This document shows positions 12,590 through 47,521 of a stretch of DNA of 64,000 nt, piece by piece (the first letter of the stretch is position 1; each line of letters starts with the position of its first letter). The position numbers were made by a program, and so were the translations under genes. Under the pieces are notes generated by a model. It was given only the letters and a program-made list of their open reading frames with translations, was not told the origin of the DNA and did not search any database. Source of the DNA: Gammaproteobacteria bacterium (lineage in GTDB: Bacteria > Pseudomonadota > Gammaproteobacteria > GCA-001735895); the NCBI GenBank assembly GCA_024225395.1, contig JAAEMR010000069.1:1-64000 (forward strand), given 5' to 3'.

Positions 12590-13702
12590 ATGCCCCAGTC
12601 TAATTTCCATAATTTTCAGGTAGATAACGTAGCCATGCGCTACAGTAATTTTGCTCCACGCCTGTTTAATTTTTGCCTTTCTCTGGGCATGAGCCCTGAC
12701 TGTATTATGCCCTCACGAGCTTTTTGTTCGGATGAAAACCAGGGTTATCCGATGATTTTACTGGCCAAGCACTTTGGTATATTTCCTTTTGATCATGGTC
12801 GTGTTGGCGGCATCATGGCACCAGACAGGCATGGTCCTCATGCACATCATGGCAAGGATTCAGTCATTATTCAGGCCAGCCATGTGGGCTATGATCCTGA
12901 CACGCAATCATTTGGCAGCTATCGAAGGTTGCAGACTCATAATCAGGGTATGTCTTCTGACTGTGGTGCTATCTGTGGAGTTTTAGACTGGCATCAACAG
13001 GAGTATTCATATGCCTGCCAGCAAATATTCCTGGATAATGACTCTGGTAGACCTGTTGTTGTGATTGATAATCAGTTGCTCATGCAAGATAGAGAAGAAG
13101 GTTTAATGCTTCATGTTGAAAAGCTTGTGGAAAATACCGAAGTTGTCAGAACCTATAGCACTGCTAAATCCTTTCGAGCTTCTGCTCAACTGATTAAAGA
13201 CGTCGGTATTCACTGGCCGGAAAAGAAAACTGCGATTGACAAGCATCTGTTTCCGAGTTCTTTTTATTTTCGTAAAGAGCAGGATACGCAGTTGGCTAGC
13301 GGCTTGTTGACACGGAACTTACTTGAAATAATGCCGTATATATTAACCAGTTCAGCGCCCCCTTTATCTGCTGCAAAGGTAAATGCCCAGGTAGAATTTG
13401 ACAGAACATTTCGTACCATTGTAAAAGAGGAATCATACCGTGGTAAAAAGGTTGTTTATATTTCTGGAATACATATCGATATTTCTCCCAGAGAAGGGCA
13501 GTTATTTCCATTAACCAAGTTCGTACCCTGGGCCGCTTATATTCAGAATGAAAATGGAGAGGGTTATACCCTGGAACAGGAAGAGCTTTTTGCAGCCTTA
13601 CGGAAGCAAAGTACTGAAAACCCCTACAAAATAGATTTAACTGAAGCGATCCATCTTATGGAGAAAGAGCCAGAGGTCATGCTTCATGTGGATGAAAGTT
13701 AA
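12590..13702 (+). CDS. Putative LCIB-like beta-type carbonic anhydrase
   Basis: This 370-residue protein shows the pattern I associate with the LCIB family, a beta-CA-like fold known from algal carbon concentration: C46 in CSDE, a glycine-rich HGRVGGI segment, H98 in SHVGY, and C125 in SSDCGAICG. The spacing of Cys, His and Cys would give the zinc site, and D48 with R72 or a nearby arginine could form the Asp-Arg pair. A histidine-rich HGPHAHHG lies between. The C-terminal 150 residues extend beyond the core. The gene converges on a BicA-like transporter. Its start, ATG 12590, follows GAGAGTG. No signal peptide is visible, so it is probably cytosolic. The family call comes from motif memory and needs a profile search. 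Confidence 0.65.
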   Translation: MPQSNFHNFQVDNVAMRYSNFAPRLFNFCLSLGMSPDCIMPSRAFCSDENQGYPMILLAKHFGIFPFDHGRVGGIMAPDRHGPHAHHGKDSVIIQASHVGYDPDTQSFGSYRRLQTHNQGMSSDCGAICGVLDWHQQEYSYACQQIFLDNDSGRPVVVIDNQLLMQDREEGLMLHVEKLVENTEVVRTYSTAKSFRASAQLIKDVGIHWPEKKTAIDKHLFPSSFYFRKEQDTQLASGLLTRNLLEIMPYILTSSAPPLSAAKVNAQVEFDRTFRTIVKEESYRGKKVVYISGIHIDISPREGQLFPLTKFVPWAAYIQNENGEGYTLEQEELFAALRKQSTENPYKIDLTEAIHLMEKEPEVMLHVDES

Positions 13703-13727
13703 CAAAAATAATTTGAAGAAAGTTAAT

Positions 13728-13761
13728 AAAACCACCATGTCGTCTAGAGCATGATGGTTTT
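13728..13761. terminator. Bidirectional terminator between the LCIB-like and BicA-like genes
   Basis: AAAACCACCATG (13728-13739) pairs with CATGATGGTTTT (13750-13761) with one mismatch. A/T runs on both sides suit termination from both converging genes. Confidence 0.75.
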
Positions 13762-13793
13762 ATATTAAGCTTTATTTTGTAGCCTGCTTTAAC

Positions 13794-15458
13794 CTAGCCT
13801 TCCTTCAATATTTTTTGTGCATGTAGCAGGGCATCCAGGCGTTTGTGGTAAAGCTTACCCGTTTTAAAATGCGCTGTTACACCCTGTTTTTCCAGCATGT
13901 CACAAACCTGTTTTTGAGCACCCACCAGAAATATTCGGCGACCTGCATCTAAAGTATCGAGCAAAATATCTTCCAGTGCACGCGAGGTGGTAAAGTCAAT
14001 GGATGGCACATGAGTCAGATCCAGTAACATGATTTCATAACCTGCTGTAGAAGCATGCCTGCGAACCACTGCTTTGGCAGATGAAAAACTCATTGGGCCA
14101 GTCAGGTGAAACAGCATGATTTTACCATCAGCTTGATCGAGAATTTCAGATTCTTCATCAGTCAGATGGTAGGCTTCTTCGGAGTTGGTGATTGTTTTGA
14201 TGCCATCAACCTGCATTTGTGTCATGCGATGCATGAATAGAAAGCTTGCCATTACCATGCCTATGCCTACTGCCAGTAACAGGTCAATAGTGACTGTAAC
14301 AATCATTACTATAAGCATGATGGCTATGCCTGCTTTGGGTGCGTGTTTCATGCGTTTCAGGTAATCCCAGTCAATAATATCAGTACCAACCTTGATTAAA
14401 ATACCGGCCAGAACTGCTTTAGGAATATCGCTGGCCAGGCTGCCTGCTCCAAGCACGATGGCTAATAATACGACGGCGTGTAAAGCCCCCGAGATTGGAG
14501 TGCGTCCACCTGCATTGACATTTACCACGGTACGCATGGTGGCACCGGCTCCGGGTAATCCACCAAAAAAACCGGCTACTGTATTTCCGATACCCTGACC
14601 GATAAGTTCACGATCAGATTTGTGCTGTGTTCTGGTGATGTTGTCAGCAACCAGTGAAGTCAGCAGTGAGTCGATAGCGCCTAGGCCAGCCAGTGTCAGA
14701 CCTGAAGCAATCATTTGTAACATTAATGAAGGTTCAATGACCGGCATTCTAAACTCGGGAAATCCTGTTGGAATATCGCCAATGATGGGGGTTGCACCCG
14801 GTTCAATAAACATTAGATAGCTGAATGTACCGACAAACAGTGCGATTAACGGTGAGGGTACCAGGCGGTTGATTGCCGGCAGGAATTTTGGAACCCCGTA
14901 AACAATAGCCAGCACGATCACTCCAAGAAATAATGCGCTACTGTTGATGTTGCTCAGATAATTTGGAATTTCCTGTGCAGCTGCCAGAGGTTTTGAATTG
15001 GCAGTCTGGCCTAATAGTGGCCCTAGTTGCAATAAGATGATGATGACACCAATGCCGCTCATAAAACCAGAAACGACAGGGTGTGGAACCAGCTCGATGT
15101 ATTTTCCCAGCTTTAACATGCCAAAAGCAATTTGAAACAGGCCGCCGAGTATCACGACGGTAAAGGCCAGTGCTGCCCCCTGAGCCGGGTCATCAGGATA
15201 CATGCCGGTGTACTGAATAAAAATAGCTGCCATAACTACAGTCATGGGGCCTGTTGGTCCAGAGACCTGAGCGGGTGTTCCACCGATTAATGCCGCAAAA
15301 AAACCAACAAAAATTGCTCCGTACATGCCGGCGATAGGACCAACACCTGATGCTACGCCCATGGCCATGGCAAGAGGTAGTGCGACGACTGCCGCTGTTA
15401 AACCGCCATAGATATCTCCACGGATATTATTAAAATGTAAACCGTTAATGTAATTCAT
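13794..15458 (-). CDS. SulP/SLC26 anion transporter, BicA-like
   Basis: This is an inner-membrane anion transporter of 554 residues with 12-14 hydrophobic segments and a C-terminal STAS domain (about 440-550). It closely follows cyanobacterial BicA, a sodium-dependent bicarbonate transporter: GDIYGGLTAAVVALPLAMA, GGTPAQVSGPTGPMTVV, GQGIGNTVAGFFGGLPGAGA and TVVNVNAGGRTPISG. Neighbours support bicarbonate uptake: an LCIB-like gene converges on it, and NhaD and RuBisCO lie within 10 kb. Its start is three bases from the stop of the LysR gene on the same strand, so the two form one operon. Sulfate transport is the main alternative. Confidence 0.85.
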   Translation of the reverse strand: MNYINGLHFNNIRGDIYGGLTAAVVALPLAMAMGVASGVGPIAGMYGAIFVGFFAALIGGTPAQVSGPTGPMTVVMAAIFIQYTGMYPDDPAQGAALAFTVVILGGLFQIAFGMLKLGKYIELVPHPVVSGFMSGIGVIIILLQLGPLLGQTANSKPLAAAQEIPNYLSNINSSALFLGVIVLAIVYGVPKFLPAINRLVPSPLIALFVGTFSYLMFIEPGATPIIGDIPTGFPEFRMPVIEPSLMLQMIASGLTLAGLGAIDSLLTSLVADNITRTQHKSDRELIGQGIGNTVAGFFGGLPGAGATMRTVVNVNAGGRTPISGALHAVVLLAIVLGAGSLASDIPKAVLAGILIKVGTDIIDWDYLKRMKHAPKAGIAIMLIVMIVTVTIDLLLAVGIGMVMASFLFMHRMTQMQVDGIKTITNSEEAYHLTDEESEILDQADGKIMLFHLTGPMSFSSAKAVVRRHASTAGYEIMLLDLTHVPSIDFTTSRALEDILLDTLDAGRRIFLVGAQKQVCDMLEKQGVTAHFKTGKLYHKRLDALLHAQKILKEG

Positions 15459-15461
15459 GAG

Positions 15462-16364
15462 TTAGGTCGATTGTTTCCTGAGTAGTTGAATGAATGCTTC
15501 AGCGACGGGATTGTTGATACTGGATCGGTTGAGGGCAATCCACAATGTTACTTTAATTTTTAGCTGATCAACATTGATATGCCGCAATAAATTGTTTTTT
15601 AATGCATCTTTTACCGTAAATTTGGGTAAAAAACTCAAGTGTTGTCCACGACTTATGATTTCCACAATGGCCTCAGTAGAGCCAACTTCCAGCGAAATGG
15701 GGAGCTGATTTATCCCTGCATCAGAAAGTTTTTGATCGAGAATTAAGCGCATGGACGATTGAGGTTCTCTCAATACAAATTTTTGCCGGGTTAATTTTTT
15801 GATGGGGATGATGTGTTCACTGCTTAAGGCATGGTTGGGTGAGCACACCAGGATCAATTCATCTTCGAACCATTTCTGCACCAGTATATCGGGATGATCC
15901 GGCGCTTGTTCTATCAGAGCCAGGTCGGACAGGCCGGTGGCCAGGCGAGTTTGTATTCGACGTGAGTATCCCGTTCGACTCTGTAAATGATATTCGGGGT
16001 GTTTTTCAGAAAAATTCCATAACAGATCCGGTAATAATTTTTCACCGATGGCAGAGGTAACTTCCAGGCGTAACAGGTTTTTACCCTGGCGTAAACTGCT
16101 CAAATCTTCAATAAGCGTGGTCTGATGATCAAGCGCCAGGCGGGCATAGGCATATACTTTTTCACCGGCAGTTGTCAGCTCCAGTTTTCGACCTTTACGT
16201 TGCATTAACGGAGTGCCATAGCATTCATCCAGCGAGCGTAGTCGTTTGGTGATAGCAGGTTGACCTATGTGTAAAAATTTGCCGGCATGGCTTACGCCAC
16301 CGAGTTCAACGACGGCGCGCAATGCAGCAAGGCCTTTCAGATCTGGCAAGGTTATATATTCCAT
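15462..16364 (-). CDS. LysR-type transcriptional regulator
   Basis: A 300-residue LysR protein with an N-terminal winged helix-turn-helix (GGVSHAGKFLHIGQPAITKRLRSLDE) and a substrate-binding domain. It is co-transcribed with the BicA-like gene and divergent from the SLC13 gene, so it probably controls both. A dyad TATTCC-N5-GGAATA overlaps its start codon. It is distinct from the cbbR-like gene at 23079. Its effector is unknown; a Calvin-cycle metabolite, bicarbonate or a sulfur compound would all be plausible. Confidence 0.9.
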   Translation of the reverse strand: MEYITLPDLKGLAALRAVVELGGVSHAGKFLHIGQPAITKRLRSLDECYGTPLMQRKGRKLELTTAGEKVYAYARLALDHQTTLIEDLSSLRQGKNLLRLEVTSAIGEKLLPDLLWNFSEKHPEYHLQSRTGYSRRIQTRLATGLSDLALIEQAPDHPDILVQKWFEDELILVCSPNHALSSEHIIPIKKLTRQKFVLREPQSSMRLILDQKLSDAGINQLPISLEVGSTEAIVEIISRGQHLSFLPKFTVKDALKNNLLRHINVDQLKIKVTLWIALNRSSINNPVAEAFIQLLRKQST

Positions 16365-16574: not shown

Positions 16575-18581
16575 ATGAGTTCAGCAGTTAAGTCTGCGGG
16601 CACACCGGCAGGTGAAGATTCTGCCGCCCCCAAAGTGAGTTACCTTTCCACCAAACAAATTATTGCAGGCGTGATTTTCTCCATCATGGCTTTTGCACTG
16701 GCAGCGATTGTTCCAACAATTGAAATTGCCTGGGTGACCGCTGTTTTGATATTGACTATTTACCTGTTTGCATTTGAAGTGGTTGGTGTCGATGTGGCTG
16801 CCGTTTCTGTAATGGTGCTCCTTGGGTTGACTACTTTACTGGCACCTCTTATGGGGCTGCAACAGGGACTGGTTGATACGCAGCAAATCTTTAACGGTTT
16901 TAGCTCCAATGCAGTGATGTCAATTATTGCGGTAATGATTATCGGCGCAGGGCTGGATAGAACGGGTTTGATGAGTAAAGTGGCGTCGTTTATTCTCAAA
17001 ATAGGCGGTACCACGGAAGGTCGGATTATCCCGATTATTTCCAGCACGGTGGGCATTATTTCATCATTCATGCAAAATGTTGGGGCCGCTGCTTTATTTC
17101 TGCCCGTTGTTGGTCGAATTTCTGTCCGTTCAGGAATTCCGATGTCACGTTTATTGATGCCTATGGGTTTTACCGCAATTCTGGGCGGTACCGTAACGAT
17201 GGTGGGTTCCAGTCCATTAATACTGCTTAATGATTTAATCCTGGCGTCCAACCAGGCACTTCCGGCTGATCAGCAAATGGATACCTGGGGGCTGTTTTCC
17301 GTAACACCGGTAGGTTTGGCGTTGATGGCTACCGGCATTTTGTACTTCGTTATTGCCGGTCATTTTGTTCTGCCGGTTTCAAAGGTCGAAAAAGGCAAGA
17401 CATCTGATCCTATGCAGTATTTCAAGGAAGTTTACAACATGGATTATGCGTTGAATGAAATTGTCGTCCCGGATTCAAGTAATTTGATTGGTAAAAAGCT
17501 GGATGATGTTGAGACAACCTATCGTATTCGTATTATTGCCAACAAGATGAGTGGTGAGGCTGGTCAGGTGGGTCCCGGTACACTGGCTCGAGATATCGAA
17601 TTTCAGGCAGGCATGGTTTTAGGTGTGATTGCCGCACCGGGTCATCTTAATCACTTCGTTGAAAAACATGAGTTGAAAAAGCGCGATGCATTGCGCACGT
17701 TTGTCGATGCGCTATCACGCAATAAAGCGGGTATTGCCGAAGTGGTTATACCTCCCGGATCTTCTCTGGTAGGCAAAACCGCACGTGATGTCTGGATGCG
17801 TAAGACTTATGGCCTGGCCATGATCAGTCTACATCGAGGTGGTGACACGCTGCAGGAAGGTGACGATATTCGTAATATGCCTTTGCAGGCTGGTGATACA
17901 CTGGTTGTACATACTACCTGGGTGGCACTTTCACGTATCAGTAAAGATCGCAATTTTGTGGTGATTACCACGGAATATCCACAGGAGGAAAAACTGCGTC
18001 CGGAAAAACTGAAATGGGCCGGCCTGTTTTTTTCTATTGCTTTGGGCCTGGTATTGTTTTCTGACTTACGCCTTTCTATTGCGCTGTTAACCGGTGCTGT
18101 CGGTATGATTCTTTCTGGCGTATTAAAAATTGAAGAAGCATATGAAGCGGTTAGCTGGAAAACTGTTTTTCTGCTGGCTTCTCTTATTCCGTTAGGCCTG
18201 GCCGTTGAAACCAGTGGCACGGCGAAATGGATCGCAGAACAGGTTCTATTTGTTGTGGGTGATGCACCAGGCTGGGTGATTCAGGCTTCGGTAGCAATAT
18301 TGGCGACTTTCTTTACGCTGGTGATGTCTAACGTCGGGGCAACAGTGTTACTGGTTCCTCTGGCGGTGAATATTGCTATTGGTGTAGGGGCTAGCCCGGC
18401 GGTTTATGCGTTAACGGTTGCTCTTGCAACGTCTAATTCATTCCTCATTCCGACGCATCAGGTGAATGCTTTAATCATGGGGCCTGGTGGTTATCGCGTG
18501 CCTGATTTCATGAGAGCGGGTGGCATCATGACTATTCTGTTTCTGATCGTATTGATCCTGATGATGGGAATTATCTTCTAG
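16575..18581 (+). CDS. SLC13-family transporter with two RCK-C (TrkA-C) domains
   Basis: This 668-residue inner-membrane transporter has two blocks of hydrophobic helices separated by a soluble stretch (about 290-470). That stretch carries two TrkA-C-type modules (IVVPDSSNLIGKKLDDVET and VVIPPGSSLVGKTARDV). The helices contain family-like motifs such as FMQNVGAAALFLPV and TLVMSNVGATVLLVPL. Members are annotated as sodium-coupled sulfate, thiosulfate or dicarboxylate carriers. The gene is divergent from the LysR-BicA-like operon, so bicarbonate or sulfur anions are plausible cargo. An AGGAGGGG site after its stop once served a downstream gene that has decayed. Confidence 0.82.
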   Translation: MSSAVKSAGTPAGEDSAAPKVSYLSTKQIIAGVIFSIMAFALAAIVPTIEIAWVTAVLILTIYLFAFEVVGVDVAAVSVMVLLGLTTLLAPLMGLQQGLVDTQQIFNGFSSNAVMSIIAVMIIGAGLDRTGLMSKVASFILKIGGTTEGRIIPIISSTVGIISSFMQNVGAAALFLPVVGRISVRSGIPMSRLLMPMGFTAILGGTVTMVGSSPLILLNDLILASNQALPADQQMDTWGLFSVTPVGLALMATGILYFVIAGHFVLPVSKVEKGKTSDPMQYFKEVYNMDYALNEIVVPDSSNLIGKKLDDVETTYRIRIIANKMSGEAGQVGPGTLARDIEFQAGMVLGVIAAPGHLNHFVEKHELKKRDALRTFVDALSRNKAGIAEVVIPPGSSLVGKTARDVWMRKTYGLAMISLHRGGDTLQEGDDIRNMPLQAGDTLVVHTTWVALSRISKDRNFVVITTEYPQEEKLRPEKLKWAGLFFSIALGLVLFSDLRLSIALLTGAVGMILSGVLKIEEAYEAVSWKTVFLLASLIPLGLAVETSGTAKWIAEQVLFVVGDAPGWVIQASVAILATFFTLVMSNVGATVLLVPLAVNIAIGVGASPAVYALTVALATSNSFLIPTHQVNALIMGPGGYRVPDFMRAGGIMTILFLIVLILMMGIIF

Positions 18582-19696: not shown

Positions 19697-21496
19697 ATGC
19701 GGCTGGCTGTTTTTTTTAAGAAATATTGTAATTTTGGATATTGTTTTTTTCCTTTCATGGGCTGGATTAAAGAATTAAAAAATCCGGCTGTACTTAAAGC
19801 GGATCTAATTGCCGGTATTACCGTTGCTCTGGTGCTGATTCCACAGTCTATGGCTTATGCCCAGTTGGCAGGCTTACCTCCCTATTATGGTTTATATGCA
19901 TCTTTCCTTCCTGGAATGGTTGCAGCACTTTTCGGATCATCAAGACAGCTTGCCACAGGGCCTGTCGCTGTTGTTTCATTGTTAACCGCTTCTGCGCTTG
20001 AGCCTATTGCTGCTTCCGGTTCAGACGCTTATCTCGCTTATGCCATTATTCTGGCTTTATTCGTCGGTGTTTTTCAGTTGCTATTAGGCCTGTTAAGGCT
20101 GGGAGTTCTGGTTAACTTTTTATCCCATCCAGTTGTAGTCGGATTTACAAATGCGGCTGCGATTATTATTGCGACTTCTCAGATAAGTAAGATTTTTGGT
20201 GTGACTGTCGAGAAGGCTGCGCATCACTATGAAACAGTTTGGCGAGTGATGATGGCTGCGTTTGATCATACGCATTATCCAACCCTGGCTATGGGGGTTT
20301 TGTCCCTGGCTATTCTGATAGTGTTTAAACAGTTTTTACCAAAATGGCCTAACGTGTTAATTGCAGTTGCAGTGGCAACAATTGTTTCATGGGCGTTCGA
20401 TTTTGCAGGCAAAGGAGGGGCTGTTATCGGCAGTATTCCTGAAGGGTTACCGGGGTTTAGTTTTCCAGAAGCTAGCTGGTCTGAAGTATCTGGTTTAATG
20501 GGAACTGCTATTGCAATCGGTCTGATTGGTTTTATGGAGGCCATCTCAATTGCCAAAGCGATGGCGGCGAGAACACAGCAAAAACTCGATCCCAATCAGG
20601 AGCTTGTGGGACAGGGGCTGAGTAACCTGGTTTCCGGTATGTTTTCCGGTTATGCGGTTTCCGGTTCTTTTTCTCGTTCTGCGGTGAATATCAATGCCGG
20701 TGCTATTACCGGATTTTCTTCTATTGTTACCGGTGTGGTTGTGGGTATAACGCTGCTCTGGTTAACGCCATTACTGTATCACCTGCCACAGGCAACTCTG
20801 GCATCGGTAATCGTCATGGCGGTTGTTAACCTGGTGAAAATTGAACCCATCAAGTATGCCTGGAAAGTGCAAAAGCATGATGGCATCGTTTCAATTGTGA
20901 CTTTTGGTTTGACCTTATTACTGGCTCCTCATCTGGAAAATGGCATTATTGTAGGAGTACTTTTATCACTGGGCCTGTTTTTGCACCGCACTATGCGTCC
21001 ACGTATTGCGCTTCTGTCAAGACATCCTGATGGCACCTTGCGCGATGCCAAAGTGCATGATCTGGAGCTTTGCCCTCATATCAGCATGATCCGTTTTGAT
21101 ATGTCTCTCTATTTTGCCAATACCGGTTATTTTGAAGATACTATTCTTGAACAGGTAGCGGCTCACCCCGAGGTTCGATATATCATTATTGATGCAGAGT
21201 CGATTAATCATATCGATGCGACGGGTGAAGAAATGCTGCATTCATTGGCTAAAGCACTGGATGAATCTGGAGTTGAGTTTCTGTTTGCGCGAACTAAATT
21301 GCAGGTTCTGGCTGTTTTTATCCGTACTGGTTTTATCAAGACCCTGGGTGAAGATCACTTTCATAGAACTCGTTCTGAGGCACTTAAATATGCCTGGGAT
21401 CGTACCTATTGTGAGCATGAAGGTTGTACCGCTAACTGTTACCTCGCCCGTGGTAAAGTTGCTGAAGTAGAAGTGCCAGTACCAGCTTCTTCCTGA
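19697..21496 (+). CDS. SulP/SLC26 anion permease with STAS domain
   Basis: A 599-residue inner-membrane anion transporter with the classical SulP stretch DLIAGITVALVLIPQSMAYA, the PPYYGLYAS motif, about 12 membrane segments and a C-terminal STAS domain (roughly residues 450-560). It is closer to sulfate-permease-type members than to the BicA-like gene at 13794. A cysteine-rich tail (CEHEGCTANC) follows the STAS domain. The start may lie at ATG 19757 (MGWIKELKNP), where family similarity begins, rather than ATG 19697. NhaD follows on the same strand. Cargo could be sulfate or bicarbonate. Confidence 0.88.
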   Translation: MRLAVFFKKYCNFGYCFFPFMGWIKELKNPAVLKADLIAGITVALVLIPQSMAYAQLAGLPPYYGLYASFLPGMVAALFGSSRQLATGPVAVVSLLTASALEPIAASGSDAYLAYAIILALFVGVFQLLLGLLRLGVLVNFLSHPVVVGFTNAAAIIIATSQISKIFGVTVEKAAHHYETVWRVMMAAFDHTHYPTLAMGVLSLAILIVFKQFLPKWPNVLIAVAVATIVSWAFDFAGKGGAVIGSIPEGLPGFSFPEASWSEVSGLMGTAIAIGLIGFMEAISIAKAMAARTQQKLDPNQELVGQGLSNLVSGMFSGYAVSGSFSRSAVNINAGAITGFSSIVTGVVVGITLLWLTPLLYHLPQATLASVIVMAVVNLVKIEPIKYAWKVQKHDGIVSIVTFGLTLLLAPHLENGIIVGVLLSLGLFLHRTMRPRIALLSRHPDGTLRDAKVHDLELCPHISMIRFDMSLYFANTGYFEDTILEQVAAHPEVRYIIIDAESINHIDATGEEMLHSLAKALDESGVEFLFARTKLQVLAVFIRTGFIKTLGEDHFHRTRSEALKYAWDRTYCEHEGCTANCYLARGKVAEVEVPVPASS

Positions 21497-21542: not shown

Positions 21543-21643
21543 ATTTGTTACTGTTTCCCGTTTACCTTTAAGGTCTTAATTTCTTGACAGTAAAGCTGTG
21601 AATGTTAATCATTCGTCAACTTCCAATTTTCAAAATAATAAAG

Positions 21644-23065
21644 ATGAAAGTGCTATCGATCATTATATTTAGTGTAATTAGTTTGCTACTACCCCAGACA
21701 AGCTTTGCTACAACTGTTTATCAGCCGCTAGATTTAACATCCAGTAATATTGGTTTCATCGCTATCATCATCTTTGTTGTGGCTTACCTGTTGGTCATGG
21801 CTGAAGAATTTACCCACCTGAGAAAATCCAAACCCGTCATTATTGCTGCTGGAGTTATCTGGGCATTGATTGCGTTTGTGTACCAGTCCCATCCGGGTAT
21901 GGAAGGAATGCCGGGTCAGGCAGTGAGGCATAGTTTGCTGGAATATGCTGAATTAATGCTGTTCCTGCTTGCTGCGATGACCTATATCAATGCGATGGAA
22001 GACCGCCAGGTTTTTGAAGCCCTTCGCTCAAAGCTGGTCAGTTCCGGTTTAGGCTTTCGAGCATTATTCTGGATTACAGGCTTGCTATCTTTTGTGATTT
22101 CACCGGTGGCTGATAATTTGACCACGGCTTTATTGATGTGCGCCGTGGTGTTAGCAGTGGGAGGACATAATGCCAAATTCGTTATGATTGGTTGTATTAA
22201 TATCGTAGTAGCTGCTAATGCGGGTGGAGCTTTTTCACCTTTTGGTGACATCACGACCTTGATGGTGTGGCAGAAAGGAATTGTTCAGTTCTGGGACTTC
22301 TTTGCATTATTTATTCCATCAGCAGTCAATTATCTGGTGCCTGCCGCAATAATGCACTTTGCAGTACCGGATGAAAAGCCTGAAGCTTCTGATGAGATTG
22401 TCATCATGAAGCGCGGTGCCAGGCGAATTATGTTTTTGTTTTTATGTACCATCATTACTGCTGTCAGCTTTCATAACTTTCTTCACTTACCCCCTGTAAT
22501 AGGTATGTTGACTGGACTGGGGTATCTCAAGGTATTTGGCTATTACCTGAAGATAACCCATGATTTTGATAAAGTCCCTTATGATGCATTAAAGGGGAGT
22601 GAATCCGTAGGTGATATTGTACCGTTTGATGTTTTCAAGGGGGTGGCGCGTGCAGAATGGGATACATTGTTATTTTTCTATGGAGTTGTTCTGTGTGTTG
22701 GTGGTCTTGGCTTTTTAGGTTATTTAAGTCTGGCATCAGAATTAATGTATACACAATGGGGCGCAACCAATGCGAATATTGCTGTAGGTGTGTTATCTGC
22801 TATTGTGGATAATATTCCAGTGATGTTTGCGGTGTTAACCATGCTACCGGATATGTCACAGGGGCAGTGGTTGCTGGTAACCTTAACAGCCGGTGTTGGT
22901 GGCTCGATGTTATCTATTGGTTCGGCTGCGGGTGTGGCTCTGATGGGGCAGGCAAGGGGTAAATATACTTTTTTCGGGCATTTGAAATGGACCCCCGTCA
23001 TTGCATTAGGGTATATAGCCAGTATTGCTACTCATTTATGGCTTAATGCATCTTTGTTTAACTGA
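21644..23065 (+). CDS. nhaD: Sodium:proton antiporter NhaD
   Basis: An inner-membrane Na+/H+ antiporter of about 473 residues with 11-12 membrane segments. Family-like stretches include SPVADNLTTALLMCAVVLA, NAGGAFSPFGDITTLMVW and GVLSAIVDNIPVMFAVLTM. I prefer ATG 21644, which opens a clean signal-like helix (MKVLSIIIFSVISLLLPQTS); ATG 21602 would add 14 residues. The Na+ gradient it maintains could power a BicA-like bicarbonate carrier. The order SulP-nhaD upstream of the RuBisCO locus supports that link by inference. Confidence 0.9.
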   Translation: MKVLSIIIFSVISLLLPQTSFATTVYQPLDLTSSNIGFIAIIIFVVAYLLVMAEEFTHLRKSKPVIIAAGVIWALIAFVYQSHPGMEGMPGQAVRHSLLEYAELMLFLLAAMTYINAMEDRQVFEALRSKLVSSGLGFRALFWITGLLSFVISPVADNLTTALLMCAVVLAVGGHNAKFVMIGCINIVVAANAGGAFSPFGDITTLMVWQKGIVQFWDFFALFIPSAVNYLVPAAIMHFAVPDEKPEASDEIVIMKRGARRIMFLFLCTIITAVSFHNFLHLPPVIGMLTGLGYLKVFGYYLKITHDFDKVPYDALKGSESVGDIVPFDVFKGVARAEWDTLLFFYGVVLCVGGLGFLGYLSLASELMYTQWGATNANIAVGVLSAIVDNIPVMFAVLTMLPDMSQGQWLLVTLTAGVGGSMLSIGSAAGVALMGQARGKYTFFGHLKWTPVIALGYIASIATHLWLNASLFN

Positions 23066-23078
23066 CCATCTATTCCGG

Positions 23079-23987
23079 TTAAATTGTGAGCGCTATTTTA
23101 CCGGCCTGTTGCAGCACGTAATCACGAAATTTTTCAGCTAACGGCGACAGGCGTTTATCTTTACGTTGTACCAGGTACCATGAGCGGCGCAATGGAAAGC
23201 CTTCGGCATTGATAATTTTCAGTCGTTTTTCTTTTAACTCGTGTTCCAGTGTATGGATGGAAGCCACACCTAGTCCAAGTCCTGCTTCGACTGATTGCTT
23301 GATAGCATCATTACTATTCATTTCCATGTTGGTGATAAGCGTTTTGTTATGTTCATTAAAAAACCTTTCCATCGCCAACCGGGTACCTGATCCGGATTCT
23401 CTAACCACAAAACCATGCTCCAGTAGTTGATTGATAGAGACAGATTGCTGCTGTTTTGCCAGTGGGTGTGATTGAGAGGCAATCACGACTAATGGATTAT
23501 CCATAAAAGCAATAGTATTTAAGTTCATGTTTTCAGGCGGTAAACCCATCAGCACAATATCAGCCTCACTGTTTTCCAGTTGCTCAATCAGGCCTTCCCT
23601 GTTGGTCACATCAAAACTGATGTGCATGCCGGGGTATAACTCATTAAAGGTTGCGAGCATTTTGGTGGCGACTGCTGAAACCGTTGAGGCAACTACAAGC
23701 TTGAGACGGCCAAGGTGACCTTCGGTGATTTGCTTCAAGTGCTGTTCAGTTTGATCAATCTGTTGCAAGACATTACGGCTTAAAATGAGCATTTCATGAC
23801 CTGCGTCAGTTAACTGGATTTTTCTACCGGCTTTGGTTAGTAGAGAAGTGCCTGTTACTTCTTCTAACTGCTTGATTTGCATAGAAACGGCGGGTTGTGT
23901 GAGGTGTAAAACCTTAGCCGCCTGGGTAAAATTTTGATGAGTTGCAACCTCTAAAAAGACCTTTAGCTGCCTAATGGTGATATTCAT
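23079..23987 (-). CDS. cbbR: LysR-type regulator of the Calvin cycle, CbbR
   Basis: This 302-residue LysR protein has the N-terminal pattern typical of CbbR (RQLKVFLEVATHQNFTQAAK, LHLTQPAVSMQIKQLE) and the GSGTRLAMERFF segment in its effector domain. It is transcribed divergently from cbbM with 196 bases between the two starts. This is the classical arrangement in which CbbR senses RuBP, NADPH or related signals and activates RuBisCO. A TTA-N7-TAA site lies between them at 24020-24032. Confidence 0.93.
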   Translation of the reverse strand: MNITIRQLKVFLEVATHQNFTQAAKVLHLTQPAVSMQIKQLEEVTGTSLLTKAGRKIQLTDAGHEMLILSRNVLQQIDQTEQHLKQITEGHLGRLKLVVASTVSAVATKMLATFNELYPGMHISFDVTNREGLIEQLENSEADIVLMGLPPENMNLNTIAFMDNPLVVIASQSHPLAKQQQSVSINQLLEHGFVVRESGSGTRLAMERFFNEHNKTLITNMEMNSNDAIKQSVEAGLGLGVASIHTLEHELKEKRLKIINAEGFPLRRSWYLVQRKDKRLSPLAEKFRDYVLQQAGKIALTI

Positions 23988-24183: not shown

Positions 24184-25572
24184 ATGGCTTTATTAGATCA
24201 AACAGGTCGTTATTCTGACCTAAGCCTGGACGAAGACAAGTTGTTGGCTGATGGTGGCCACATTCTAGTTGCTTACACCATGACACCTGCTGAAGGTTAC
24301 GGTTACCTGGAAGCTGCTGCTCACTTTGCGGCTGAATCTTCAACCGGTACTAACGTAGAAGTTTCTACGACTGATGACTTTACTAAAGGTGTTGATGCAC
24401 TGGTTTACCATATCGATGAAGCTGAAGGCAAAATGAAGATTGCCTATCCTATCGATCTGTTTGACCGTAACGTGATTGACGGCCGTACCATGATCGTTTC
24501 ATTCCTGACACTGGCTATTGGTAACAACCAGGGCATGGGTGATATCAAGAACTCTCAAATGTATGATTTCTACATTCCACCTAAACTACTGCGTTTGTTT
24601 GATGGTCCTTCTGTCGATATTTCTGATCTGTGGTTCCAGTTGGGTCGTCCTCGTGAGAATGGTGGTTACATCGCTGGTACTATCATCAAGCCAAAGCTTG
24701 GTTTACGTCCAGAGCCATTTGCACATGCTGCATACCAGTTCTGGTTAGGTGGCGATTTCATCAAGAATGACGAGCCCCAGGGAAACCAGGTTTTCTGCCC
24801 AATGAAGAAGGTATTGCCTTTAGTTCATGACGCCATGAAGCGTGCACAGGATGAAACTGGTGAGCCAAAGATCTTCTCTATGAATATCACAGCTGACGAT
24901 CACCACGAAATGTGTGCTCGTGCTGACTACGGTCTAGAGTTATTCGGTGAAGATGCTCCTCGTTTAGCATTCCTGGTTGACGGTTATGTGGGTGGCCCAG
25001 GTATGGTTACAACCGCACGTCGTAACTATCCTTCACAATACTTGCACTATCATCGTGCAGGCCATGGTGCGGTTACTTCTCCTTCTTCAAAGCGTGGTTA
25101 CACTGCGTTTATCCTGGCCAAAATGTCACGTCTGATGGGTGCTTCTGGTATCCACGTAGGTACAATGGGTTACGGTAAGATGGAAGGTGATGCTTCTGAT
25201 AAGATCATCGCATACATGATCGAGCGTGATGAGTGTCAAGGGCCTGAGTACTTCCAGAAATGGGAAGGTATGAAGCCAACAACTCCAATCATCTCTGGTG
25301 GCATGAACGCACTGCGTCTACCTGGTTTCTTTGAGAACCTGGGACACGGTAACCTGATCAACACTTCTGGTGGTGGTTCTTACGGTCACATCGATTCTCC
25401 TGCGGCGGGTGCGATTTCTTTACGTCAGGCTTATAACTGCTGGAAAGAAGGTGCAGACCCAATCGAATACGCGAAAGAGCATAAAGAATTTGCTCGTGCA
25501 TTCGAGTCATTCGAGCATGACGCTGACGCGTTATACCCTGGATGGAGAGACAAGCTGGGCGTTCACAAGTAA
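24184..25572 (+). CDS. cbbM: Form II RuBisCO large subunit
   Basis: This enzyme fixes CO2 onto ribulose 1,5-bisphosphate. The 462-residue length, absence of a small-subunit gene, and sequence ([20 protein letters not shown]) mark it as form II. Key residues are the catalytic K169 in [12 protein letters not shown] and the carbamylated K194 with D196 and E197 in [11 protein letters not shown]. Loop 6 lies around [13 protein letters not shown] 24184 follows GAGGAGA. A strong terminator ends the unit. The GxxExxY remnant, cbbQ and cbbO follow. Form II enzymes have low CO2 specificity, which fits the bicarbonate transport genes nearby. Confidence 0.98.
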
Positions 25573-26102: not shown

Positions 26103-26912
26103 ATGACTGACATAGATATCGAACAATATAATATTAGTGAAGAGCCTTATTACGAGGCGCTGGGTGATGAAGTCGAACTGTATACAGCGGCTTATAATCG
26201 ACGTCTACCGGTTATGGTCAAAGGGCCGACCGGTTGTGGTAAGTCGCGTTTTATTGAACATATGGCGTGGAAACTGCAAAAGCCACTGATTACGGTTGCC
26301 TGTAATGAGGATATGACTGCCTCTGATCTGGTGGGTCGCTACCTACTGGATGCCGATGGTACTCGCTGGCTGGATGGTCCTCTAACCATAGCTGCTCGCA
26401 TGGGTGCGATCTGTTACCTGGATGAAATTGTGGAAGCACGTCAGGATACTACTGTTATCATCCATCCTCTGACCGACCATAGACGCACCATGCCACTGGA
26501 TAAAAAAGGTGAATTGATTGAAGCTCACCCGGATTTTCAACTGGTCATTTCCTATAACCCTGGTTACCAAAGCTTGATGAAAGACTTGAAACAGTCCACC
26601 AAGCAGCGTTTTGTGGGCATGGATTTTGAGTACCCTGAAACTAAAGTTGAAGTAGAGATTGTTACCAAAGAAGCGAATATCGATACTGAAACTGCTGCCA
26701 AGCTGGTTAAAATTGGTCAAACTGCCAGAAACCTGAAAGGTCATGGTCTGGATGAAGGTATCTCAACCCGGCTGCTGGTTTATGCCGCCAATCTGATGGC
26801 TGAAGGCATAGAAGCAAGGGCCGCCTGCCGCATGGCTCTGGTACGTCCAATTACCGATGATGTGGATATACGCAGTACGCTGGATCACTCTATAGACAGT
26901 GTTTTTGGTTGA
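26103..26912 (+). CDS. cbbQ: RuBisCO activase AAA+ ATPase CbbQ
   Basis: CbbQ is a MoxR-group AAA+ ATPase that, with CbbO, strips inhibitory sugar phosphates from RuBisCO. It is 269 residues with Walker A GPTGCGKSRF (about 41-50), Walker B-like AICYLDEIVEAR near residue 100, and FVGMDFEYPETKVEVEIV further on. It follows cbbM and the GxxExxY element on the same strand. The spacer to cbbO is entirely a small inverted-repeat element. Its distance from cbbM and the cbbM terminator suggest an independent promoter. Confidence 0.95.
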   Translation: MTDIDIEQYNISEEPYYEALGDEVELYTAAYNRRLPVMVKGPTGCGKSRFIEHMAWKLQKPLITVACNEDMTASDLVGRYLLDADGTRWLDGPLTIAARMGAICYLDEIVEARQDTTVIIHPLTDHRRTMPLDKKGELIEAHPDFQLVISYNPGYQSLMKDLKQSTKQRFVGMDFEYPETKVEVEIVTKEANIDTETAAKLVKIGQTARNLKGHGLDEGISTRLLVYAANLMAEGIEARAACRMALVRPITDDVDIRSTLDHSIDSVFG

Positions 26913-27025: not shown

Positions 27026-29278
27026 ATGAATGAAACAGAGCTTCAGAAATTCCGGGATCAACTCAAGTGCAGCTTCAGCCAGCTTGAGGATGTGTTTGAA
27101 GATTGTATTCAGGATGCCCTGCGTCAGTTAACCAACAAGGGTGTCAAGGCTTACCTCAAGGGAGCTTCGCAGGTTTGTATGATTGGCCGGGGCTTTGACC
27201 CGGTTCTTGTTTATCTGGAAGAAATGCCCACGGTTGCCCATCGTGTGGGCGAATCATCGTTAAGCCTGGTGGCAGAAACTGTGTGGAATATGTCTCGTTC
27301 GCCTAATGGCAAAGCGATTCCCCCATTTGTCGATACTATTGCCGAGGCTGCACGGCGTACCGGATCTGAAGACAGTTTTAAGCATTATGTTGAACTGATT
27401 GTCGATATGATGGATCAAACCAGTCGTTCAATTCATGATAATCAGGGGTCGGTATACCCAAGTCCCGGGTTACCTGAAATTCTCAAGCAAATGCCTTACC
27501 TGTTAAACCAGCTATCGCTGGAAGGTCTGAAAAACTGGATCGAATATGGGGTGCGAAATTACCGTATGCGCCCGGATTATCAAAAAGCTTATTTCTCCAT
27601 GCAATCTGCAGACAGCAAAGCCATGCTTCAGCGTGAACGTCATGGAACGCTGTTCATGGATAGCGAACGAAAACTGGATACTTATTTAAGAGCTCTATGG
27701 GATGAAGATGAGCACTTTGTCCCTTATTCTCTGGGGTTTGATGAATTACGCAAACCACGTCCCTATTACGATAACCTTGGTATTCGTGTTCCCGATGTTT
27801 ATGATGATAAAAATGGTGTTTCAGGCATCAACCGATACCGCGCGACGATTGCACACATGGCTGCACACCGGCGTTGGACTTCAACAATTGTTGCCGATAA
27901 CTTTAGTCCATTTCAGCGTGTAGGAGTCGAATTACTGGAAGACTCCCGCGTAGAGTATCTCACCATGCTGGAATACCCGGGTTTAAGAAGTATCCTGAAA
28001 GCCCTGCACCCGTTTCCGGTGGAAGGCGATTGTGACCCGGAAAAAGAGTCCTGCATACTGCACCGTCTGGCCATGCTGTCACGCGCTATTCTTGATGAGG
28101 ATCATGGTTACCAAAACCCGGTGATCCATGAATTTGTAGATCGTTTTTATGATGCCATGAAAGACGGTGAGTCCAGTACTAAAGCCATGTCAAATATTGC
28201 GATCTCCTTTGTGGCAAAAACCCGTTTGCAATCGGACCAGTCACCGAATATCCGTTTTGTAAATACCGAAGTCGATTACCGTGATGATAATCGTCACATG
28301 TGGGTGTTTATTGAAGAAAACGATGAAGCTGAAGATTACGATGCAACTCGTGAAATAGAAAATGAAGAGGTTGAAGTGGATGGACTACCGCCTCGTCATT
28401 ATAAGGAGTGGGATTATCGTTCGTTAACTTATCGTCCGGACTGGGTCAGCCTGTATGAATCACTGCACCCATCAGGTTCTGCTGCTGATATTGATAACCT
28501 GCTGGAAAAACACAGTGCGCTGGCAAAACGACTCAAGCAGATTCTGGATACGCTGAAACCGCAACAGTATGTGCGCGTACGTTATCAGGAAGAGGGCAGT
28601 GAGCTGGATCTGGATGTAGCCATTCGTTCACTGATTGATTTCAAGGCCGGTTCACAGCCTGATCCACGTATCAACATGAGCCATAAGCACGATGGTCGAG
28701 ACATTGCCGTTATGTTGTTACTGGATTTATCGCAATCGCTGAATGATATTCCCGATGGTTGTGATCAGTCTATTCTTGAGCTGAGCAAAGAAGCGGTATC
28801 ATTGCTAGCCTGGGCCATTGAACATCTGGGCGATAAATTTGCCATTTCCGGTTTTTCATCGAATACCCGTCATGAAGTACGTTATCAGCACATCAAGGGT
28901 TTTAGCGAGCACTGGGATGATACGGTTAAATCACGACTGGCTGCCATTCAGGCCGGATATTCAACTCGCATGGGTGCAGCCATGCGCCATGCTGCTCACT
29001 ATCTGGGGGCCCAGAAAGCTGATAAAAAGTTGCTGTTGATTCTAACCGATGGTGAACCGTCGGATATTGATGCTGAAGATGATAAGCTGTTGATTCAGGA
29101 TACGCATAAAGCGGTTCAGGAGCTGGATCAGGATGGAATCTTTACTTATTGTATTAATCTTGATCCGCATGCAGATGACTATGTTGAGGAAATTTTTGGA
29201 GGTCAGTTCTCGGTTATCGATCATGTCGATCGACTGCCGGAAAAGTTGCCAAAACTGTTCATGAGTTTGACCAGGTAA
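27026..29278 (+). CDS. cbbO: RuBisCO activase subunit CbbO (vWA protein)
   Basis: CbbO is the adaptor that links the CbbQ ring to RuBisCO. At 750 residues it has the expected long N-terminal region, with an acidic linker (EENDEAEDYDATREIENEE). A C-terminal von Willebrand A domain carries the MIDAS motif LLLDLSQSLND and ILTDGEPSD. The start, ATG 27026, lies just past the repeat element. One base separates its stop from the start of an unknown 136-residue gene. Confidence 0.94.
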   Translation: MNETELQKFRDQLKCSFSQLEDVFEDCIQDALRQLTNKGVKAYLKGASQVCMIGRGFDPVLVYLEEMPTVAHRVGESSLSLVAETVWNMSRSPNGKAIPPFVDTIAEAARRTGSEDSFKHYVELIVDMMDQTSRSIHDNQGSVYPSPGLPEILKQMPYLLNQLSLEGLKNWIEYGVRNYRMRPDYQKAYFSMQSADSKAMLQRERHGTLFMDSERKLDTYLRALWDEDEHFVPYSLGFDELRKPRPYYDNLGIRVPDVYDDKNGVSGINRYRATIAHMAAHRRWTSTIVADNFSPFQRVGVELLEDSRVEYLTMLEYPGLRSILKALHPFPVEGDCDPEKESCILHRLAMLSRAILDEDHGYQNPVIHEFVDRFYDAMKDGESSTKAMSNIAISFVAKTRLQSDQSPNIRFVNTEVDYRDDNRHMWVFIEENDEAEDYDATREIENEEVEVDGLPPRHYKEWDYRSLTYRPDWVSLYESLHPSGSAADIDNLLEKHSALAKRLKQILDTLKPQQYVRVRYQEEGSELDLDVAIRSLIDFKAGSQPDPRINMSHKHDGRDIAVMLLLDLSQSLNDIPDGCDQSILELSKEAVSLLAWAIEHLGDKFAISGFSSNTRHEVRYQHIKGFSEHWDDTVKSRLAAIQAGYSTRMGAAMRHAAHYLGAQKADKKLLLILTDGEPSDIDAEDDKLLIQDTHKAVQELDQDGIFTYCINLDPHADDYVEEIFGGQFSVIDHVDRLPEKLPKLFMSLTR

Positions 29279-32227: not shown

Positions 32228-33115
32228 ATGTCTAAAAAGCACCCTGTCGTTGTAGTAACAGGCTCTTCCGGAGCTGGTACTTCTACTGTAAAGAAAGCAT
32301 TCGAGCATATTTTTGAGCGTGAAAGCATAACCCCGGTTGTCGTTGAAGGCGATAGTTTTCATCGTTATGATCGTGCAGCCATGAAAATTAAAATGGATGA
32401 GGCGAGTGCAGCCGGTCTTGATTACAGTCATTTTGGGGCGGATGCAAATGAGTTTGATGCGCTTTCAGAGCTGTTCAAGTCATATTCTGAAAATGGTACG
32501 GGTAAAAAGCGTTATTACCTGCACAGTGATGCTGAAGCTGCTGAACATAATGCTCGTCTGGGTGTTGATAAAAAACCGGGTGAATTTACACCCTGGGAAG
32601 ATATTCCTGCCGGAAGTGATTTAATGTTCTACGAAGGTTTACACGGTTGTGTCAAGAATGATGAAGTTGATATGACCAGCAATGTTGACCTGAAAGTAGG
32701 TGTTGTGCCGATTGTTAACCTGGAATGGATCCAGAAGATTCATCGTGATAGTGCAGAGCGTGGTTATAGTGCAGATGTTATCGTTGATACAATTTTGCGT
32801 CGTATGCCTGATTACATCAAGTACATCACTCCTCAGTTTTCTGAAACTGATATTAACTTTCAGCGAGTTTCTACGGTTGATACGTCAAACCCGTTTATCG
32901 CTCGTGATATCCCGACTCCTGATGAAAGTTTTGTGGTTATTCGTTTTAAGGATCCGAAAAAATTCGGAACAGATTTTCCTTTCCTGTTAAACATGATTCA
33001 CGATTCATTCATGTCTCGCCGTAATTCTATCGTGGTTCCCGGTGGAAAGATGGGATTGGCAATGGAAGTTATCCTGACCCCGATTATCCATCAGATGCTT
33101 GAACAAAGAAGCTAA
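32228..33115 (+). CDS. prkB: Phosphoribulokinase
   Basis: This enzyme phosphorylates ribulose 5-phosphate to RuBP, the RuBisCO substrate. The 295-residue proteobacterial class has the P-loop GSSGAGTSTV (about residues 12-21), VVVEGDSFHRYDR with catalytic Asp and RuBP-binding residues, and FYEGLHGCV. It lies 8 kb from cbbM in the same direction and is closed by a strong terminator. No other Calvin-cycle genes adjoin it. Confidence 0.95.
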   Translation: MSKKHPVVVVTGSSGAGTSTVKKAFEHIFERESITPVVVEGDSFHRYDRAAMKIKMDEASAAGLDYSHFGADANEFDALSELFKSYSENGTGKKRYYLHSDAEAAEHNARLGVDKKPGEFTPWEDIPAGSDLMFYEGLHGCVKNDEVDMTSNVDLKVGVVPIVNLEWIQKIHRDSAERGYSADVIVDTILRRMPDYIKYITPQFSETDINFQRVSTVDTSNPFIARDIPTPDESFVVIRFKDPKKFGTDFPFLLNMIHDSFMSRRNSIVVPGGKMGLAMEVILTPIIHQMLEQRS

Positions 33116-45245: not shown

Positions 45246-45653
45246 CTAAACAAGCCTGTCTCTGATCCCGCGTAACACAATGTCGGTATAGCCTACGATG
45301 CCGAGGATTTTTCTATCCTCAACGACGGGGGCACGACCCAGGCCGAAGTTTTCAAACAACCTGGCGCAGTATCGAATGTCCATATCAGGGGCCACGCTAA
45401 TCACCGGCTTTGACATGATTTCATAAATGTTGACGCGTTCTGGTGACTTATCACGAGCCAGCACCTTCTTGGCTATGTCCGATAGCATCACCAGGCCGTA
45501 TTCATCGTCGTCATGTCGTTTATCGACAATAATGCATTTAGTCTCGGTAAATTCGCCTTTTTTTAACACCTCGGCCACGGTTTCCATGCTATTGACCAGT
45601 TCGTAATCCTTTTTCATTACGTCTCTTACACGTATCAGAGTTTTGTTGTTCAT
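45246..45653 (-). CDS. CBS-domain protein of the DUF1538 operon
   Basis: A 135-residue cytosolic CBS pair (ELVNSMETVAEVLKKGEF; KPVISVAPDMDIRYCARLFE). CBS pairs bind adenosine nucleotides and often gate transporters. It overlaps the PII-like gene by four bases (ATGA), and the two probably work together as sensors for the DUF1538 membrane proteins. Confidence 0.85.
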   Translation of the reverse strand: MNNKTLIRVRDVMKKDYELVNSMETVAEVLKKGEFTETKCIIVDKRHDDDEYGLVMLSDIAKKVLARDKSPERVNIYEIMSKPVISVAPDMDIRYCARLFENFGLGRAPVVEDRKILGIVGYTDIVLRGIRDRLV

Positions 45654-46000
45654 AATTCTTCCTCTACAATTTCTGTTAATTCGTCAACCTGATGAGAGAT
45701 GCCAACGGCATCATCGACATCAATGCTAAATGCGATACCAGTGCCCGGGCTATTATCAAATTCACCTGTCCTGGCAATGGTTTCCAGAATTTCCCTGGTC
45801 AGGTGTTCTTCAACAAGCAGTAATACAACATCTCGTTGGGTTTCCAGGTTTAAGCCGAAGAATGTTTTTGAGGCTTTTATGCCTTCACCTTTGGCATTAG
45901 TAATGACGGTAGAACCGGTAGCGCCTTTTTCTTTTGCAGCATCTACGATCTTGTCGGTTATCCCGTCCTCGGTAAGAGCAATTATCAATTTGAAATGCAT
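45650..46000 (-). CDS. PII-like signalling protein
   Basis: This 116-residue protein has the ferredoxin-like PII core (MHFKLIIALTEDGITDKIVD; RDVVLLLVEEHLTREILETI) but lacks the T-loop tyrosine region of GlnB/GlnK. I chose ATG 46000; the open frame runs upstream, but that part overlaps the DUF1538 gene. PII-like proteins bind nucleotides and regulate membrane transporters, as SbtB does SbtA. It lies directly between DUF1538 genes and a CBS gene. Confidence 0.8.
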   Translation of the reverse strand: MHFKLIIALTEDGITDKIVDAAKEKGATGSTVITNAKGEGIKASKTFFGLNLETQRDVVLLLVEEHLTREILETIARTGEFDNSPGTGIAFSIDVDDAVGISHQVDELTEIVEEEL

Positions 46001-46010
46001 AGCTAGTTTC

Positions 46011-46793
46011 TCATTGGGTTGGTTTATCTTTGTTGCGTTTGGATACCCACTCGGAAATTTGAGCGTAAACCATAACGGACATAATGGGGAAAAGGCTGGC
46101 AAAGGCTATCAGGCCAAAACCATCCAGTAACGGACTGCGGCCGGGAACTGTGGTAGAAAGCCCGAGACCCAGGGCGGCGACCAGCGGAACTGTAACCGTA
46201 GAAGTGGTTACACCGCCAGAATCATAGGCAAGTGCAATGATTAATCGAGGTGCAAAAAAGGTCTGTATGACGACAAAAACATAACCGGTGATGATGTACC
46301 AGTATAACGGCGTGCCGGTGACAATCCGGAAGACACCCAGTGCGATTCCAATGGCTACGCCGATAGCAACCGCTATTCTCAGTCCCCAGATGCTGATACT
46401 GCCTGCAGAAACCTGGTTAGCTTTAATGGCAACGGCGAGTAAGGATGGTTCTGCAATGGTAGTGGCAAAACCAATCGCAAAAGCAAACAGGTAAACCCAT
46501 TTGTAATGCCACCAGTTGAGAGTAGATTCTGCAGCGCCCTGTAAAATGAAATCAAGATTGGTTAACTGTGTCGCCATCAATTTGCCTAATGGAAACAGGG
46601 CTGCTTCCAGTCCTTCCAGGAAAAAAGCCAGGCCAAGCAAGACCAGTAGAAAACCCATCAGAATTTTTTTCAGATTGGGCATGGCTTTTCTTAATACAAA
46701 AAGCTGAAATCCAAAAATGATGGCAGCTATCGGTAATACATCCCAGATGGTCGCCAGAATAACGTGGAACAGATCCGTGAAAATATGCATCAC
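46011..46793 (-). CDS. DUF1538 integral membrane protein (second copy)
   Basis: A 260-residue inner-membrane protein with about seven hydrophobic segments and the DUF1538 signature [20 protein letters not shown], shared almost word for word with its neighbour. Start and stop overlap with the upstream copy (ATGA). The pair may form a heterodimer. DUF1538 has no established function; the PII and CBS partners suggest a regulated transporter. Confidence 0.85.
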
Positions 46794-47521
46794 ACCACCA
46801 TCCCGTAACCCATGACAAAAATCATCGGGGTTAAAGAAGCGAAAGCAATAAGTCCAAATCCGTCAATCATCGGGTTACGTCCCTTGATGGAGCTTGCAAG
46901 GCCGACACCCAGAGCGGTTACCAGGGGAACGGTAATCGTTGACGTGGTGACGCCACCGGAATCATAAGCAATGCCGATAATTTCTTCCGGGGCAAAAAAG
47001 GTCATGATGACGACCCCGATATAGCCGGTAATAATAAGGTATTGTATTGGCCAGCCTTTGATGATTCTTAGAACGCCGACTAAAATAGCAAAACCAACCG
47101 ATACGGCGACAGTAATTCGCAGGCCAAATGCATAAGACATCCTGGACTCATCGGTATCTAAAATCATGCCGCCAACGGCAGCAACATGAGAAGCTTCCTT
47201 GGCAACTGCAATTAAAGCGGGTTCTGCCACAGTGGTGCCAAAACCCAGAGAAAAGGCAAACACCAGTAACCAGAACAGGCTGCCTTTTTTAGCAAAGGCA
47301 TAAGCCATGTTTTCCCCGACCGGAAACAGTCCCATATTAAGACCATGCACAAACAGGGTTAAACCCATGACGACAAACAGGATTCCAATAGCAATTTCAG
47401 TGAAATTAGGAATGGGTTGTTGTAACACGAAAAGCTGGAAAAAAGTAATGACGCCGATTATGGGCAAAAGATCACGCAGGCTATCCAGTAAAGATTTGAT
47501 AATGGCCTTGAATGAATTCAT
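46790..47521 (-). CDS. DUF1538 integral membrane protein (first copy)
   Basis: A 243-residue inner-membrane protein with about seven hydrophobic segments and [20 protein letters not shown] near residue 185. It is paralogous to the 46011 gene: both carry FATTVAEP- or FATTIAEP-like stretches ([15 protein letters not shown] here). It is the first gene of the operon. The upstream 295 bases (47522-47816) show no gene or clear hairpin; the promoter should lie there. Confidence 0.85.

Follow-up and report, generated by a model that had tools for sequence, protein, structure and literature searches.

Both the LCIB family and its fold have already been described in algae. In a review from 2020, diatoms and green algae are the only organisms given for the LCIB class of carbonic anhydrases (PMC7215798), and we found no account of LCIB proteins from bacteria in the literature that we searched. 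Bacterial members may be in the databases already, and PDB entries 9vzj, 9w00 and 9w05, which are named LCIB/C domain-containing proteins, might be bacterial. Here we describe a 370-residue LCIB-like protein encoded in a window of 64,000 nucleotides from a gammaproteobacterial draft genome (265 contigs, 98.85% complete). Its nearest counterpart, PtLCIB4 (PDB entries 5b5y, 5b5z and 5b60, also 6kfs), has the same fold, the same CSDE / SHVG / CG order and a serine after the first cysteine. Identity over the aligned core is 15%, and the window protein differs in being bacterial, in carrying an insertion of about 80 residues and in adjoining a gene for a bicarbonate-transporter-like protein. LCIB and LCIC of Chlamydomonas (5k5w, 5b5x), which are chloroplast proteins of the pyrenoid system, share the fold and the Cys-x-Asp-Glu, His, Arg and Cys positions, but have CRDE where the window protein has CSDE. 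The E. coli beta-carbonic anhydrase (1i6o, 9eat) has the same core fold (Z 11), with Cys-x-Asp after the first core strand; the Pro_CA profile of the classical enzymes, however, does not match the LCIB-like gene. The DabA/DabB complex likewise involves a beta-carbonic-anhydrase-like protein working with carbon uptake (PMC13144422), whereas the window locus has no DabA-type sequence and its membrane neighbour is a SulP transporter.

The genes of the locus are as follows:

12590..13702, plus strand: LCIB-family beta-carbonic-anhydrase-like protein, 370 residues (profile, alignment and predicted structure)
13726..13763, no strand: inverted repeat between the convergent genes, with 14-nucleotide arms that are 93% complementary
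13794..15458, minus strand: BicA-like SulP transporter with a STAS domain, 554 residues (Pfam, NCBIfam and PDB matches)
15462..16364, minus strand: LysR regulator, on the same strand as the BicA-like gene and 3 bp upstream of it
16575..18581, plus strand: CitMHS/DASS-type transporter with TrkA_C domains (profile matches)
19697..21496, plus strand: second SulP/STAS transporter, of generic SulP type (profile matches)
21602..23065, plus strand: NhaD Na+/H+ antiporter (632.9 bits, cut-off 80)
23079..23987, minus strand: LysR regulator, with CbbR as its top NCBIfam match, under that model's cut-off
24184..25572, plus strand: form II-type RuBisCO, 462 residues (NF010002, 872.9 bits, cut-off 489)
26103..26912, plus strand: CbbQ-type AAA ATPase (CbbQ_C, 112.7 bits)
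27026..29278, plus strand: VWA protein in the CbbO position, from which the name CbbO is taken
32228..33115, plus strand: phosphoribulokinase (484.6 bits, cut-off 362)

The LCIB-like gene, whose product has no apparent signal peptide, and the BicA-like gene converge across a gap of 91 bases and are not co-transcribed; the inverted repeat between them is possibly a two-way terminator. The form II RuBisCO gene starts 8.7 kb beyond the BicA-like gene. As a separate observation, the second SulP protein ends in a tail rich in Cys and His (CEHEGCTANC, window 21390-21496).

Does the protein belong to the LCIB family? An initial annotation of the locus had proposed an LCIB-like carbonic anhydrase, to be checked against profile PF18599 (LCIB_C_CA), and this check gave a divided answer. 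The intact window protein has no match to PF18599, nor to any Pfam or NCBIfam model, an outcome that the initial annotation would have taken as refutation, whereas the profile matches 22 of 24 homologues (best E 1.8e-7) and also the window protein itself once residues 166-245 are removed. The homologues were collected from two named metagenome-assembled genomes (MAGs), from the genus and family, and then from the class, and were aligned. Among ten listed individually, four exceed the PF18599 cut-off of 25 bits (L047 with 29.1, L034 with 28.3-28.6, L010 with 27.2 and L045 with 26.0 bits), each over approximately its first 150 residues; L010 comes from the window protein's own genus and is 69% identical to it.

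The feature that separates the window protein from the profile lies in its C-terminal half:

13085..13324, plus strand: insertion of about 80 residues (residues ~166-245) splitting the LCIB domain, delimited by the PF18599 score after excision

Excision takes the window protein from no match to 27.8 bits, L034 from 28.3 to 36.9 bits and L047 from 29.1 to 38.3 bits, and without the insertion the match covers almost the entire profile. Control constructs, in which the C-terminal part was replaced by shuffled letters or by the insertion itself, scored 26.8-27.8 bits and showed no gain. Since excision raises the score and the controls do not, the sequence of the window protein is that of an LCIB domain interrupted by about 80 inserted residues, an insertion that its bacterial branch probably shares. 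The insertion hides the window protein from the standard PF18599 profile. A PF18599 search of 398 sampled genomes of the organism's phylum returned no match at E 1e-4, and the profile therefore underestimates the family.

Kinship could also be traced to solved structures. A sequence search of the PDB with the window protein gave nothing useful, and both a 24-member profile and a 7-member profile of the N-terminal part missed the LCIB entries. A profile to which distant bacterial homologues had been added (A3) finds PtLCIB4 by sequence alone with an E-value of 1.3e-4, followed by LCIB and LCIC, with CSDE, SHVG and CCG in register.

The predicted structure agrees with this assignment. In a first model (pLDDT 81), the strong fold matches were LCIB entries only; a deeper alignment produced a model with pLDDT 92 and pTM 0.90. 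This model aligns to PtLCIB4 with a Z-score of 24.0 (224 residues, 2.7 Å) and to LCIB and LCIC with 19, against 8.0-11.5 for classical beta-carbonic anhydrases (Sordaria 11.5, E. coli 11.2), 7.7 for the CS2 hydrolase 3teo, about 6 for CsoSCA and just under 6 for unrelated chains; no viral fold match was found for the model. The structure prediction suggested in the initial annotation thus gives the window protein the LCIB fold. The alignment with 9eat begins by pairing residue 36 of the model with residue 32 of the chain, and from these start positions C46 may fall on Cys 42, which we take to be a zinc ligand of the E. coli enzyme.

The conserved positions of the window protein are as follows:

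12725..12736, plus strand: C46-S47-D48-E49, the predicted zinc cysteine and the aspartate of the presumed dyad; C, D and E are invariant, and PtLCIB4 has CSDE
12788..12853, plus strand: histidine-rich conserved loop or helix, residues 67-88, with H87 invariant (alignment and model)
12881..12883, plus strand: H98, predicted zinc ligand, invariant and aligned to SHVG of PtLCIB4
12926..12928, plus strand: R113, invariant arginine, aligned to an arginine in PtLCIB4, LCIB and LCIC
12962..12967, plus strand: C125-G126, the predicted second zinc cysteine, invariant and sensitive in the profile probe

The motifs FCSDE (C46), SHVGY (H98) and SSDCGAICG (C125), from which an LCIB-like enzyme was first suspected, are all present in the open reading frame, and the Cys-His-Cys order read as a zinc site aligns to PtLCIB4 and is invariant in 34 homologues. 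Residues C46, D48, E49, H87, H98, R113 and C125 do not vary in these homologues down to 19% identity, and the invariance of C46, D48, E49, H98 and C125 over this distance argues that the motifs are more than chance. Homologues from a second phylum, 19-24% identical, retain C-x-D-E, H-x-G and C-G. We replaced residues one at a time in the N-terminal part of L034 and rescored it with PF18599: the losses were 7.1 bits for C46A, 5.9 for H98A, 5.7 for D48A, 4.6 for C125A, 3.8 for E49A and 3.0 for G126A; substitutions at R43, S47, R80 and histidines 69, 81, 84, 86 and 87 changed the score by -0.6 to +0.5 bits. R113 is a candidate partner of D48, a role that we infer. The residue after the first cysteine is Ser in 27 homologues, Ala in five and Pro in two; it is S47 in PtLCIB4 as well, as an S47R mutant entry of that protein indicates.

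One element of the initial annotation does not hold. The histidine-rich stretch (about 66-88) had been described as an insert, but the Pfam alignment passes through it at near-equal length (L036 residues 28-141 against profile positions 7-121), which rules out an insertion relative to LCIB; the real one is that at ~166-245. Within this stretch, the counterpart of PtLCIB4 H88 may be H84 or H87, an assignment of which we are not confident.

The convergent neighbour was likewise expected to resemble BicA. Its best NCBIfam model is BicA (NF050096), which scores 622.7 bits where generic SulP reaches 294, but since the BicA score does not reach the equivalog cut-off of 880 bits, we name the protein BicA-like rather than BicA. 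Among solved structures, 6ki1 chain A is closest to it, with 391 bits across the membrane domain, and its STAS half matches 6ki2; both entries bear the title low affinity sulfate transporter and are, we assume, cyanobacterial BicA.

The form II RuBisCO suspected nearby is present at 24184-25572: NF010002, presumably the form II model, scores it far above two other RuBisCO models (872.9 bits versus 243 and 232). The genome also encodes a second, form I-like RuBisCO (contig C105) and an ordinary beta-carbonic anhydrase (contig C129), so that the LCIB-type enzyme need be neither the sole supplier nor a servant of the form II enzyme alone. The suggestion that carboxysomes are missing fits the genome: neither the BMC shell domain (positive in two control genomes) nor CsoS2 (positive in 71 genomes of the class) was found in it.

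We consider that the locus probably encodes a supply module in which a cytosolic LCIB-type zinc carbonic anhydrase works with the BicA-like transporter and NhaD to turn bicarbonate into CO2 for an unpackaged RuBisCO. C46, H98 and C125 would hold zinc, and D48, probably with R113, would orient the zinc-bound water. Bicarbonate would enter with Na+ through the BicA-like protein acting as a Na+/HCO3- symporter, the Na+ gradient being restored by NhaD in exchange for protons, and the enzyme would equilibrate bicarbonate with CO2 near RuBisCO, outside carboxysomes. Zinc binding, activity, direction and coupling to RuBisCO are what we infer in this proposal.

Gene contexts elsewhere bear on this reading. 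Of the 369 Gammaproteobacteria sampled, 25 have a homologue, as do 12 of 395 genomes of the second phylum (the one to which a Desulfobacterales MAG belongs); no relatives were found in plasmids or viral contigs. With neighbours identified by BLAST and clustering, approximately half of the gammaproteobacterial loci lie near BicA-like, DabA/B, Mrp, NhaD or cbb/cso genes. A BicA-like gene stands beside the homologue in four families (f1, f43, f95 and f135) and three layouts: in the window genus, in L032 (convergent), in L041 (tandem) and in L084 (divergent). A convergent SulP gene in L075 was discarded as a BicA candidate, as it scores higher as DauA or generic SulP. Mrp-type subunits are found by L032, L039 and L041, with Mrp subunit E adjoining the homologue in L032 and L039; NhaD adjoins it in L038, CbbQ/O genes lie near it in L045 and L051, and a cso operon is near in L083 and L084 and within ~10 kb in genomes G342 and G376. 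In L035 (4528-13628), a run on one strand comprises dabA, a dabB-like gene, two large open reading frames (the last Mrp/NuoM-like) and then the LCIB-like gene. In the second phylum (L072-L078), the LCIB-like gene often precedes hydrogenase-4/NuoL-like membrane subunits, which argues against a fixed link between the family and RuBisCO.

RuBisCO-family genes are carried by 20 of the 25 gammaproteobacterial holders against 162 of 344 other genomes (odds ratio 4.5, p 0.0012, a trend, as related genomes count as independent), and three of the five holders lacking them are drafts of 72-77% completeness. Among RuBisCO-bearing genomes, CsoS2 is found in 3 of 20 holders against 68 of 162 others (p 0.015; by family p 0.049), likewise a trend, relatedness being controlled only through the family count. 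We considered whether LCIB-like enzyme and carboxysomes might be mutually exclusive; three genomes (G188, G342 and G376) are exceptions, and the relation is a trend only. The notion that the LCIB-like protein stands in for CsoSCA in these three finds no support, as all of them have CsoSCA. Together with the second-phylum homologues, these exceptions point to a wider role in inorganic-carbon handling. Within a single genus (G323, G077 and G217), one genome holds an LCIB-like gene without CsoS2 and two non-holders have CsoS2.

Could the enzyme be active but mainly hydrating, trapping entering or leaking CO2 as bicarbonate, feeding carboxylases (PEP or acetyl-CoA carboxylase, for example) or aiding CO2 uptake? 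This would resemble the role proposed for LCIB/LCIC in the chloroplast stroma (PMC10096703), and would suit the DabA/B operon of L035, the other neighbours seen in the second phylum, and the carboxysome-bearing G342 and G376, where it would be wasteful to have a dehydrating enzyme in the cytosol. We regard it as possible but unlikely for the window genome, given that CsoS2 is rarer in RuBisCO-bearing holders and that, with no carboxysome genes found, the net demand should be for CO2 at RuBisCO. Where PMC9164163 discusses Price and Badger (1989), a cytosolic carbonic anhydrase is described as harmful in carboxysome-concentrating cells, which fits both the CsoS2 trend and the absent shell genes.

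The fold alone is no proof of catalysis, since LCIB and LCIC share it and their activity is unconfirmed (PMC10096703). A silent structural or regulatory protein, as LCIB or LCIC may be when alone, is nevertheless improbable here, because the presumed catalytic residues are all invariant to 19% identity and Ser, Ala or Pro takes the place of Arg at position 47. That the protein hydrolyses a sulfur analogue, COS or CS2, is less probable still: 3teo is among the fold matches and TusA-like and thiouridylase-like genes lie nearby, but LCIB is far closer in fold, and the genes that recur in the neighbourhood code for carbon transporters or belong to the Calvin cycle. That short motifs resemble LCIB by chance in an unrelated protein, as the lack of any Pfam or NCBIfam match for the intact protein might suggest, is refuted by the match of profile A3 to PtLCIB4 and by the fold match, with which motif conservation agrees.

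Beyond the window, we tentatively propose, and hold somewhat doubtful, that LCIB-type carbonic anhydrases form a widespread branch in bacteria that has had little recognition and whose members act as exchangeable enzyme partners of various membrane systems for inorganic carbon or ion translocation (BicA-like, DabA/B, Mrp and hydrogenase-4-like), including RuBisCO supply without carboxysomes. Such a branch, in autotrophs and beside transporters, would connect carbon acquisition in algae with that in bacteria, would bear on the origin of LCIB and would supply one more carbonic anhydrase candidate for autotrophs without carboxysomes.

Several further elements were noticed. In two second-phylum loci (L073 and L077), a helix-turn-helix gene and a PtsN-like gene lie between the LCIB-like gene and the hydrogenase-4/NuoL-like subunits. 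A distant LCIB-like subfamily, 19% identical, is encoded at L079:8355-9527 and L080:3547-4695, with small CBS-like proteins and a DASS-type transporter, the latter scored in L079, as neighbours. Another genome of the window organism's family has an LCIB-like remnant that lacks all of the zinc site (L009:2767-3297); cbbR flanks it on one side and a cbbL-cbbS-csoS2-csoSCA operon on the other. Finally, in the window itself (45650-47521), a P-II-like gene overlaps the end of two adjacent genes for DUF1538 membrane proteins, possibly forming a PII-regulated transporter.
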